Assembly: GCF_037975245.1 (NCBI RefSeq)
Contig: NC_092568.1
Location: forward strand, 7,299,501 to 7,363,500
Origin: Apostichopus japonicus
Taxonomy: Eukaryota; Echinodermata; Holothuroidea; Aspidochirotida; Stichopodidae
Direction: 5' to 3'
DNA: 64,000 nucleotides
Shown: positions 30,633 to 39,941 of the stretch, piece after piece
Position numbering within the stretch: position 1 is the stretch's first letter
How the letters are laid out: every line of letters begins with the position of its first letter
Translations under genes and position numbers: made by a program
The notes under the pieces: model-generated
What the model was told of the DNA's origin: nothing
Database searches by the model: none
The model's input: only the letters and a program-made list of their open reading frames with translations

Positions 30633-30717
30633 ATGTTCTTTACATTTTCCTTGGCAAGCTATTATGCTTCATCTTACATGTTTGGGAATTTCAACAAATT
30701 CCTGGCCTATGGACGAG
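30633..30717 (+). CDS. Mini-exon gene, proposed first coding exon
   Basis: ATG at 30633 has A at -3, and the exon ends at a perfect GTAAGT donor in phase 1, matching all downstream introns. It encodes [18 protein letters not shown] and ten more residues, aromatic and fairly hydrophobic, possibly a weak signal peptide. A competing start at 30536 gives MTSFTELNLVTYMLCIIAIA, a better signal-peptide core, but would need a poor GTTGAA donor at 30600. Neither is proven. Confidence 0.45.
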
Positions 30718-33700
30718 GTAAGTTACTATCAACAAAAAGAATGTTTTAATGCGCATTTTAAGTTAACATTCACCCACAGTATCTTAACAGTCGATTGCAT
30801 TGAAAATAATGATATTTTTAATTTCCAACGTATAAACACCGGAATAGAAAAGTAGTCAAATTTGTAATTGTGTGACTGTTGATTCATACTTGTTTTACAA
30901 TCAGAAAATTAAATCAATTTGTCTACATTAGGTTTTAATTATATGATATGTATTAGTATTTCAGTTATTCCACATAAACACATTTCCGTACCCGTTCGCT
31001 GTTTTAACTACCCAAGTGTACTTATCGTCTATACCCTCAGCTCAATACATCCTTCCACAAGGATGTTACGGGTACCGTCCTCCGTTTAAAGGTAAGATAT
31101 TAGTTTATTGTTCTCGTAAGTCATCAATGATATTCAAGCATTTACGTGTGTGAAATCACTCGATCATTGATATAAAGAAGGCCAAGGCATCACTTTGTGT
31201 CCATGGGGTGGAGGGGGCGGAGGGTGCTAATGAGAACATGAATAATGATAGTGGATAAATACATAATGTTGTTGAGTGGAAATGTAACCGTCACTTACGA
31301 TTGATTTCTCTAATTATTCATCTATAAACTAGCTGGCGGAGTCACATAGGATATATCAGGACGATTATCGGAATTTTATTTCTAAAATTGTTTAGTTTGA
31401 GCAGAAATATCTCCTTTTAAATCCAAAGAAATCCCAAGAAATTTTGATTTGAAAATATCAATGTTAAGCGAAAAGGTTTAATGAATATTAAAGAACAGAG
31501 AACTATAATTCAGGGCTCGTGTGTAGCATGTACCTCTTACACTATTTAATAAGGAGTCTGCAGCGACGATAAGTTTAACTATTACTAACCATAACAATTT
31601 ATTACATCGTTCCAACATTAGCATATACACTGTCCCATACTTTTCCAGCGAGACAACTTATTGTTTACTGTGTCTATCTTGCCCACTCTAGTAAATGCGG
31701 TTCCAGTTAGGTATCTTGTTGTAAAAGTTAAATATAAGAAAAGAATAAGAAGTTTCCTTAAATTTTGTTCAAAACTTTTCAAACTTAATTAAGATTATCT
31801 TGTGTATATTATGATCTATGAATCTGCTAGGAATGAATTTGTAAGACTTGCTTAATTCTCTGTGCAATTAAAGAAATTGTAATGAAAGAAATCCAAATAT
31901 AACTCCATGTTTTAGAATATCACTCTTTAAGAACACTTTTGTTTATAGAACAGCTCTCTTTGTACAGAACCTTTTTTTACATTCTTTCATTGTAGCTTTC
32001 CGATAACTTTTGTAACGAATTTTATGGTTTATTATTTTCTTAATCTCTTAAACGTTTATAGCCTATATGTCGTAATCTTTTTCTTCAGGTTCTTAATTGT
32101 TATATGATTTTTTTAAATCCTATTTATCAACTATCTGTAAGTTTATACTGGAATAGAGAATAAGTGAATGAATGAAAGTGATGGCGCTGTATCAATATTT
32201 CTAACATTGATATAAATGGACTTTAACATTAAGTTATACATCCTTTTTCTACGCATAGATCTAAAACGGACAACCTTCAATCGGGAATCTCCCGTGACCG
32301 GAGATGATTCCTCTGCGCTTCTTTGCTTAACATCAGGTACTTTTTTCACGCTTGTTCTCCAAGTTACTAACTTTAAAGGAAATACTTTTTTCATAGTACC
32401 AACTTTTGTTATTATAGACGTACAGTTTATATCTCACTCTAAATAAAGACACGAATTTTCCACCATCATGCAAGCAATTAATAATGTCACTTCATTGTAC
32501 AGCTGTATATTCTAATTTCTTGTCCTTTTGCTGTGTTTCTTTGTTTTGATTGACTGATGTAGTTAAGTTAAGTCAATAACCTCGCCTTATTAAGTTCAAA
32601 TGAAATGACAATATAACTTCTCTGTTTTACTTTAGAGCAAACCCTGCGCATGCGTGAAGATCTCCATTACAGTAAGATCAAATGTTCTCTTCTTTTACTG
32701 AAAATGAATATTCTTGACGTATAAAAGGATATATTACTTGATTTTTTGCTTTATACCCGAAATTCTATGTTTCTTAAAATCAAACTTTCAGTAAAATGCT
32801 GTAATTTTTTAAAATTATTAAAAAAATATATATATGCTAACATTTCTTCTGCTCTTTTCAGTCTTCCTTGATCTTACGCTTCAAGACCAGTTAAAATTCT
32901 ACCCTGACTTTGTGCTGGCACAACTTGAAGGTGAGTTACAAACGATACTCGTGTTTAGATAAACTGATATACATATACATAAATATTCATGAGATGTTCC
33001 ATAATTTCCTCTAATTTCACTATTTAATGGACAAAATGTCGACGAATGTTCACATGGTGGTCTTTGATTACTCTTTGAGGCGTTTTTTGTTTGTTTCCAC
33101 AGAATGCCTCCTTCAAGGACTTCCTTCAAGTTTTCCTCTCGATCATAAGAACGGTTAGTCGGTTGTTTTGTTATGTAATTATTGCCAGAATGAAGGCAAG
33201 AAAAGAGAACGAATAACCACGTGCTCGATACTCATGCTAGGGGATTTCCTTAATTGTTATTCATCTTTTATTTCAGATCCTGAGAGAACCTTTTTGATTC
33301 CAAATGGTAACTTTGGGATCCCCACCTTGCCTCGAGGTGAGTCTAAAGGCTTTAGAAAAGAATATGAAAAAAATGCAACAGCTGGTTTCGTGTTCATTGA
33401 TTGGCCTTGGTCACATCACTAAGCAAACAAACAAAGATATGACGCAACTTGTTTTATCGCCATAGAGTCCCTGCAATGTTGGACGTCAATAACATGATTA
33501 GAAAAACACACAATCGCTAGTTTAATTAATTACGTATAATTTCAGTTGGAAATGAAGCATAATCACTGAATATAGAATATCCAGCAGGGTTTCTCATTAC
33601 CTGCACACAATATTTTAGAAAAGTAATGAATGTCTTCTTACGTGATAAAAGCAGTTGGACCAAGCCCCCTTTACTCCCCCCCCCCCCCTCTCCAAACACA

Positions 33701-39700: not shown

Positions 39701-39941
39701 TGAATCGCGTGTTGAATCGCGCAGATGTGACCCGGGCTTAAGGTTCATCTGGCATATATGTAATAGTTGCACTACGTCAAAAACTAACTTTATTCGAGTG
39801 CCTTAACCTAACAACATCCAGACGTGAAAGCGAACACAAAAGTATATCTTACGATCTGCAGGTTTTTTACACTTAAATATTCCTACTTGGCTTTCATTTC
39901 ACATCTCAACAGGCGACCACCTCCTTTACCTGCAGTACTGA
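30633..39941 (+). CDS. Mini-exon gene: 23 tiny exons, 21 internal ones symmetric and phase 1
   Basis: Reconstructed from splice signals. Exons: 30633-30717, 31041-31091, 32259-32336, 32636-32671, 32862-32930, 33103-33153, 33277-33336, 33773-33841, 34025-34072, 34294-34338, 34464-34502, 34937-34984, 35270-35323, 35606-35656, 35983-36036, 36629-36682, 36876-36929, 37102-37149, 37976-38026, 38438-38482, 38731-38778, 39068-39130, 39913-39941. Every internal exon is a multiple of three and splits a codon after base 1, so the frame stays open for 1230 nt (409 residues). The product is rich in Thr, Ser, Gln and Asp with few Cys, possibly extracellular and O-glycosylated, but I recognise no domain. 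The first exon is the least certain; an alternative start at 30536 would encode a more hydrophobic leader. The last intron holds a MITE. Function unknown. Confidence 0.75.
31041..33336 (+). CDS. Mini-exon gene, exons 2-7 (N-terminal, mixed composition)
   Basis: Exons 31041-31091, 32259-32336, 32636-32671, 32862-32930, 33103-33153 and 33277-33336, of 51, 78, 36, 69, 51 and 60 nt. They encode, for example, [17 protein letters not shown] (exon 2), [12 protein letters not shown] (exon 4) and [17 protein letters not shown] (exon 6). Unlike the later exons they are not Thr/Ser-dominated and contain three of the few Cys residues. Donors are GTAAGA, GTACTT, GTAAGA, GTGAGT, GTTAGT and GTGAGT. The exon 4/5 junction splits ATC rather than a G-starting codon. 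Confidence 0.7.
33773..34984 (+). CDS. Mini-exon gene, exons 8-12 (Thr/Gln-rich)
   Basis: Exons 33773-33841, 34025-34072, 34294-34338, 34464-34502 and 34937-34984, of 69, 48, 45, 39 and 48 nt. Products include [44 protein letters not shown] and [16 protein letters not shown]. Each begins with the last two bases of a Gly, Asp or Val codon whose first G ends the previous exon. Acceptors have clear pyrimidine tracts ending in CAG or TAG. Confidence 0.75.
35270..39130 (+). CDS. Mini-exon gene, exons 13-22 (repeated DG-start module)
   Basis: Exons 35270-35323, 35606-35656, 35983-36036, 36629-36682, 36876-36929, 37102-37149, 37976-38026, 38438-38482, 38731-38778 and 39068-39130, mostly 45-54 nt. 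Six of the ten begin Asp-Gly, e.g. [70 protein letters not shown]. Shared length, phase and start suggest descent from one duplicated exon of about 51 nt. Two donors are atypical (GTTTGT at 35324, GTTGGT at 38779). A TA microsatellite lies between exons 15 and 16. Confidence 0.78.
36246..36500. repeat. (TA)n microsatellite in mini-exon gene intron
   Basis: About 135 bp of uninterrupted TA followed by further TA blocks broken by TTT and AACT. It creates long spurious Tyr-Ile open frames that are not genes. Likely length-variable and prone to assembly error. Confidence 0.97.
37128..37345 (+). repeat. Three tandem copies of mini-exon 18 end plus donor
   Basis: GATCAGCGT-(13 nt)-GGTAGG occurs with donors at 37150 (the one used in the model), 37241 and 37338. 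The copies also share CCATCGATTGTTTAGGAGTG and GACGGGGCAAGGGAATGGGG-like sequence. Period is 91-97 bp. The exon frame extended past the first donor meets TAG within the first unit, so distal donors would truncate the product. Confidence 0.85.
39492..39741. mobile_element. MITE with long terminal inverted repeats, PIF/Harbinger-like
   Basis: The element is 39495-39738 (244 bp) and is flanked by TAA at 39492-39494 and 39739-39741. The ends AGCCCGGGTCACATCTGCGC and its complement form near-perfect inverted repeats of about 47 bp. A 3-bp TAA/TTA duplication is the hallmark of PIF/Harbinger elements. It has no coding capacity. It sits in the last intron of the mini-exon gene. Confidence 0.85.
39913..39941 (+). 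CDS. Mini-exon gene, proposed terminal coding exon
   Basis: After acceptor CTCAACAG the phase-1 frame reads GDHLLYLQY and stops at TGA 39939-39941. An AATAAA follows at 40192-40197. If exon 22 is instead not spliced at 39130, its frame continues 14 residues to TAG at 39172-39174, giving an alternative end. Confidence 0.5.

Follow-up and report, generated by a model that had tools for sequence, protein, structure and literature searches.

A constrained family of phase-1 mini-exon genes in Apostichopus japonicus whose exons may each encode one strand of a predicted beta-sheet

In the available parts of the published accounts, most of the coding region of schistosome micro-exon genes (MEGs) consists of very small symmetric exons that can be added or dropped in frame by splicing; these genes are taxon-restricted, their exons measure 6-81 bp according to the text and 3-81 according to the abstract (mostly 15 bp), the longest MEG encodes 189 amino acids (aa), and high ratios of nonsynonymous to synonymous substitution rates (dN/dS) are reported for orthologues (PMC4350168, PMC10526429). 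The bicycle genes of aphids and relatives, as described in the accessible sections of the source, have on average about 17 microexons, with almost all internal exons in one phase, and megacycle, with >100 microexons, arose by internal duplication (PMC9168663). In elastin (tropoelastin), according to the accessible part of a third account, one exon encodes one domain of a low-complexity repeat protein, and isoforms are made via exon omission (PMC7947355). Here, we describe a gene built largely of mini-exons in a 64-kb stretch of the Apostichopus japonicus genome (C8:7299501-7363500; referred to as the window, to which all positions refer unless C8 or Mb is given). We found no report of micro- or mini-exon genes in echinoderms or A. 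japonicus in the open-licence literature, and none in the available part of PMC13228809.

The window gene has an 85-nt first exon, 21 internal exons of 36-78 nt (mean, 53 nt; median, 51 nt; 12 of the 21 are ≤51 nt) and a 29-nt last exon with a TGA stop codon. The exons were redrawn by hand from the sequence. All internal exons are multiples of three in length, all 22 introns (123-1167 nt; median, 287) are GT-AG introns in phase 1, and the 23 joined exons give an open frame of 409 residues. An earlier reading made from the letters alone (here, the sequence-only reading) had proposed about 23 exons of 29-85 nt with these symmetries; all 23 were recovered at the positions it gave, and joining them reproduced its 409-residue frame.

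We searched the whole assembly (671.6 Mb in 35 contigs) for related copies. A DNA search with exon 1 identified 22 copies that are full or close to full, each of them on C8, and one short partial match. In addition to the window gene, these comprise a decayed copy at 7.087 Mb (0.24 Mb away) and 20 copies at 11.63-12.33 Mb (~4.3-5.0 Mb away), referred to as the array, with minus-strand copies on its left and plus-strand copies on its right. A protein search gave at least 104 matches, all on C8, with 102 of 407 first-look candidates scored. We read 19 of the 22 copies, of which 14, including the window gene, have all 23 exons in an open frame, with the sole length change being an exon 7 that is 3 nt longer in four. 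The first ten complete array copies (at 11.636, 11.653, 11.668, 11.751, 11.767, 11.784, 11.802, 11.817, 11.834, and 12.330 Mb) share the same exons in order and length (exon 7 +3 nt in two) and are open, as are further complete copies at 11.885, 12.285, and 11.917 Mb. The copy at 12.138 Mb has an open frame as far as exon 22, at which point the sequence obtained runs out. Four copies are damaged or incomplete: at 12.238 Mb, exon 5 is one nt short; at 7.087 Mb, the frame of exon 1 is broken, exon 12 lacks its AG, and exons 13-23 were not found within 20 kb; at 11.932 Mb (C8:11923700-11932400), exons 14 and 15 are deleted (~0.73 kb) and the rest is open, leaving exons 13 and 16 14 nt apart and too close for mutual splicing; and at 12.186 Mb, the 10 kb read contain exons 1-4 only. 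Separately, we observed apparent duplications of exon 22 near the 12.138-Mb copy (C8:12145535 and 12146119) and of exon 2 near the 11.668-Mb copy (C8:11665729 and 11666996). Several array copies carry, ~1.27 kb before exon 1, a fragment resembling the middle of exon 5; it was rejected as a candidate extra first exon on account of the missing exon 5 donor and a stop codon in one of the five shown.

Conservation among these copies follows the exons. When positions 30400-40200 were compared by blastn with five regions holding related copies, strongly covered blocks (8 or more matches) lay over each of the 23 exons; coverage of this strength was otherwise confined to the region 5' of exon 1, a TA repeat (36246-36500), and a number of intron flanks. 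Because weaker blocks (3-7 matches) extend into several introns, the introns are mostly, not wholly, unaligned. Identity between the exons of the window gene and those of array copies is 0.832 (83%), while intron identity, taken without gaps, drops to about 0.2-0.5 over the ~15 nt next to the splice sites, so that the flanks are near random. Between the window gene and ten array copies, dN is 0.127-0.137, dS is 0.40-0.47, and dN/dS is 0.27-0.33 (exon 7 excluded). Among the array copies, mean dS is 0.077 and dN/dS is 0.41; the array is accordingly younger than the divergence between it and the window gene. When the comparisons are pooled for each exon, the ratio of the proportions of nonsynonymous and synonymous differences (pN/pS) is <1 in 22 of 23 exons, although the ten comparisons share history and the per-exon values are not independent; in exon 3, pN is 0.227, pS is 0.112, and pN/pS is 2.03, a small, descriptive value. 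Given the conserved exons, the near-random intron flanks, a dN/dS of ~0.3, and the retained exon set, the window gene is, as judged by sequence comparison, a member of a real, constrained gene family under purifying selection.

The sequence-only reading had also held that so long an open frame is very unlikely by chance. To quantify this, non-overlapping open phase-1 mini-exons were chained under one fixed splice-site score in the 9.3-kb target. This gave 16 mini-exons. By comparison, 24 other placements covering both strands of the window gave 0-8, the antisense strand of the target gave 3, and 100 Markov simulations gave a mean of 2.3 (maximum, 7). Under two stricter scores, the counts were 15 versus a mean of 0.5 (maximum, 3) and 10 versus 0.15 (maximum, 1). 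However, 12 exons could still be chained in phase 0 in the same region, and an open frame alone is for this reason weak evidence. The decisive evidence for the gene is, as we see it, comparative, i.e., the conservation of its exons in related copies. That splice-like sites line up by chance, or that the copies are a decaying cluster of pseudogenes, would agree with the four damaged or incomplete copies but is hardly credible in view of this conservation, the dN/dS values, the chain test, and the gene models at NCBI, and for the window gene itself the conserved exons and frame refute it.

As the sequence-only reading had expected, open-frame searches would miss exons this short; NCBI nevertheless already lists members of the family, as uncharacterized proteins. 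The product of the window gene (P0002; a 395-aa "uncharacterized protein" of A. japonicus) uses 22 of the 23 exons; it lacks exon 4 and, by use of a donor 6 nt upstream, has a shorter exon 22, both in frame, and is otherwise residue-identical to the joined exons. P0003 and P0004, from related copies, have exon 4 and the 63-nt exon 22 originally proposed; in P0003, a single residue is added where exons 5 and 6 join. P0005 lacks exons 2, 4, 5, and 9 and continues into a peroxiredoxin-like tail; because this tail maps downstream of the decayed 7.087-Mb copy, we interpret P0005 as a fused gene model. By assignment of exons by eye, exon 7 is missing from P0006, which stops after exon 12, and exon 5 from P0007, which stops after exon 9; P0008 reads from exon 4 into the next intron and terminates there. 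Of the copies compared for this purpose, only the 12.238-Mb copy with the shortened exon 5 contained the P0007 tail, and P0007 appears to be a model that drops a broken exon and keeps the frame. Exon omissions in these predicted models could stem from the prediction program no less than from splicing, and with several automatic models truncated or fused, caution is warranted in the annotation of this mini-exon family. In searches of 5.8 billion proteins, which reach only relatives with shared 5-residue words and similar length, no protein related to the window gene was found outside A. japonicus, the matches being 4 + 3 A. japonicus proteins. Pfam gave no match above the curated cut-off for the window protein (one match at E 0.19) and none for P0004, and a sequence search of solved structures identified no relation (best E 0.65, a myosin stretch).

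Skipping of any internal exon would be frame-neutral, as the sequence-only reading had pointed out: all 21 are symmetric, and the predicted models omit exons in frame. Its further suggestion of a very large set of variants corresponds to a diversity generator like schistosome MEGs, in which combinatorial mini-exon skipping would give many secreted variants. The frame neutrality, the omission of exons 2, 4, 5, 7, and 9 in annotated models, the naming of P0004 as isoform X2 by NCBI, and the excess of pN over pS in exon 3 are in agreement with this possibility. However, 14 of the 19 copies that we read share one fixed exon set, pN/pS is <1 in every exon but exon 3, a hydropathy scan gave no clear signal peptide (the N-terminus is weakly hydrophobic, with a best 11-residue Kyte-Doolittle mean of 1.0 in the first 40 residues), and the endings of P0008 and P0007 are intron run-in and sequence of the 12.238-Mb copy, respectively, rather than skips. 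We therefore consider such a generator improbable; based on the retained exon set and the pN/pS ratios, the full-length protein seems to be what selection maintains.

We next considered the predicted fold. AlphaFold models, each based on three aligned sequences, were obtained for P0003 and P0002 (mean predicted local distance difference test [pLDDT] scores, 45.7 and 38.3, respectively). The P0003 model has, at low confidence, one beta-strand in each of exons 8-22, and parts of it (residues ~161-220) reach a pLDDT of 70-82; in the P0002 model, exons 8-20 carry one strand apiece and exons 21-22 carry none. In the P0003 model, only 2 of 14 exon boundaries lie inside a strand, each one residue from the strand end, compared with 9.4 expected with shuffled exon lengths (P 0.012). 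Exons 8-22 are rich in Thr (20%), Gln (11%), and Ser (10%), and exon 13 is similar to exon 19 (z 6.5). A pore or transmembrane beta-barrel was rejected because the strands lack hydrophobic alternation, though barrels fill the fold lists; Foldseek gave nothing at E 0.001 (best, 0.004).

From these data, we consider it rather probable that, in this real family, a mini-exon corresponds to one strand of a beta-sheet, that the gene grew by exon duplication, and that the main product is full-length. Growth would have proceeded through successive duplications of small exons with 1-1 symmetry. Residues ~158-375 are predicted to form a hydrophilic, Thr/Gln/Ser-rich up-and-down beta-sheet, with one strand per mini-exon and introns at the turns; because each unit would be a whole strand in the same phase, units could be lost, repeated, or skipped without a break in frame. 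The main product would be the ~410-residue full-length protein, with single exons occasionally omitted in frame, and its likeliest role may be structural or in binding, with the extended sheet exposed; an extracellular location is a guess. The weakest steps in this explanation are the fold and the place of action. A more specific proposal, which we put forward tentatively, is that the strand-per-exon family represents an independent origin of the micro-exon-gene layout in a free-living deuterostome, with each exon encoding a beta-strand plus turn. Splicing, deletion, or duplication of exons would then lengthen or shorten one extended sheet, and loss of an adjacent pair, such as exons 14 and 15 in the 11.932-Mb copy, would keep the antiparallel order.

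Several observations weigh against a strand-per-exon protein grown by duplication. Among exons 8-22, the mean pairwise z is 0.28 and only 9 of 105 pairs exceed 2, so that exon duplication is weakly shown, and in-register exon scores exceed rotated ones by <1 standard deviation. The lag-2 hydropathy correlation is not above that of shuffles in the two sequences (P 0.79 and 0.88), i.e., the strands lack hydrophobic alternation. Moreover, 21 of 22 exons end in G, and because a phase-1 codon starting with this G can encode only V, A, D, E, or G, the boundary residue is partly fixed by the splice site. Finally, the gene is known here from genome sequence and predicted models, and because both AlphaFold models are weak, the region could be disordered. 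Exons 8-22 would then encode a Thr/Gln/Ser/Asp-rich low-complexity chain, with each mini-exon contributing a unit of length to a flexible linker or to a matrix protein, a situation like that in elastin, and AlphaFold would draw strands from residues that favour them. The low mean pLDDT scores, a mean hydropathy near -1 without alternation, and the lack of a Pfam match above the cut-off agree with disorder. By contrast, parts of the first model reach a pLDDT of 70-82, strand ends track exon ends in both models, and exon lengths and residues are conserved, which is unusual in a free linker; on balance, we regard a disordered chain as unlikely.

Table 1. Positions of the window gene and its flanking elements
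Feature	Position	Strand	Remark
Conserved 5' flank	30520..30632	+	near-invariant ~50 nt before ATG (probable 5' untranslated region); 10 copies aligned
Exon 1, 85 nt, ATG	30633..30717	+	matches 82-87% at 21 other places
Exon 2, 51 nt	31041..31091	+	
Exon 3, 78 nt	32259..32336	+	sole exon with pN > pS
Exon 4, 36 nt	32636..32671	+	omitted in NCBI protein P0002
Exon 5, 69 nt	32862..32930	+	
Exon 6, 51 nt	33103..33153	+	
Exon 7, 60 nt	33277..33336	+	63 nt in 4/13 other complete copies
Exon 8, 69 nt	33773..33841	+	first predicted strand, at exon end
Exon 9, 48 nt	34025..34072	+	one predicted strand
Exon 10, 45 nt	34294..34338	+	one predicted strand
Exon 11, 39 nt	34464..34502	+	one predicted strand
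Exon 12, 48 nt	34937..34984	+	one predicted strand
Exon 13, 54 nt	35270..35323	+	one predicted strand; similar to exon 19 (z 6.5)
Exon 14, 51 nt	35606..35656	+	one predicted strand
Exon 15, 54 nt	35983..36036	+	one predicted strand
Exon 16, 54 nt	36629..36682	+	one predicted strand
Exon 17, 54 nt	36876..36929	+	one predicted strand
Exon 18, 48 nt	37102..37149	+	one predicted strand
Exon 19, 51 nt	37976..38026	+	one predicted strand
Exon 20, 45 nt	38438..38482	+	one predicted strand
Exon 21, 48 nt, weak donor GTTGGT	38731..38778	+	short predicted strand, P0003 model only
Exon 22, 63 nt (57 in P0002)	39068..39130	+	three-residue strand, P0003 model only
Exon 23, 29 nt, TGA stop	39913..39941	+	
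AATAAA, candidate polyadenylation signal	40192..40197	+	read directly from sequence

The 5' flank begins with the perfect palindrome TGACGTCA (30520-30527; ~105 nt before the ATG), which resembles a cyclic AMP response element (CRE). It is present in 9 of the 10 aligned copies and not in the 7.087-Mb copy, but within the window it occurs 6 times compared with 0.53 expected, including inside exon 19 and in transposon-like sequence. Elsewhere in the window, two identical arrays of the 8-bp unit TTACGCAG (24.5 copies each; 46107-46302 and 53942-54137) flank long frames on the minus strand (48079-53615) that by eye resemble a retroelement polyprotein, and the arrays probably lie inside its terminal repeats. 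The open frame at 55985-57130 (+) by eye resembles the start of an EHD-type GTPase gene, and a tandem array at 26710-27475 holds 15 copies of a 51-bp unit that are 98% alike.

The sequence-only reading had named the schistosome MEGs as the closest analogy. As to gene layout, the analogy stands: all internal exons of the window gene are symmetric 1-1, and their 36-78 nt fall inside the published 3-81 bp range. Membership does not follow, because no sequence relation to flatworm MEG proteins was found in searches that returned only A. japonicus, within the 5-residue-word and similar-length reach given above. Compared with MEGs as characterized in the available parts of the sources, the window exons are longer (mostly 15 bp in MEGs), the protein is larger (~410 aa versus at most 189), dN/dS between copies is ~0.3 rather than high, no clear signal peptide is evident by hydropathy scan, and the organism is a free-living deuterostome. 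With bicycle genes, the window gene shares a large number of exons (23), introns of one phase (22 of 22 in phase 1), and a large, otherwise-unknown protein family; the accessible text calls bicycle exons phase 2, which would equal intron phase 1 if phase as in the general feature format (GFF) is meant, as may be the case (PMC9168663). Unlike the window gene, bicycle genes are described there as encoding insect salivary-gland effectors, and the CYC motif, of which many but not all bicycle members have two, is absent from the window protein, ten array models, and P0001-P0008. For lack of a sequence relation and of the CYC motif, we file the gene as neither a MEG nor a bicycle member. Elastin differs in that the window protein is hydrophilic and Thr/Gln/Ser-rich. 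The ApoB100 sheet region and outer-membrane beta-barrels would be comparable in fold at most, with a best Foldseek E of 0.004 at 7% identity that pairs a weak model with a generic meander.

By analogy, then, the layout works like those of MEGs and bicycle genes, with no descent from them shown. The 22 full or near-full copies are natural replicates that would allow a direct test of why such a layout arises, and if the match of one strand to one exon holds, the family would be an unusually clean case for exons as units of protein structure. MEGs and bicycle genes are both tied to parasite or gall secretions; this family, if our interpretation is true, would add a third case in a free-living echinoderm, and the mini-exon layout would thus not need parasitism.

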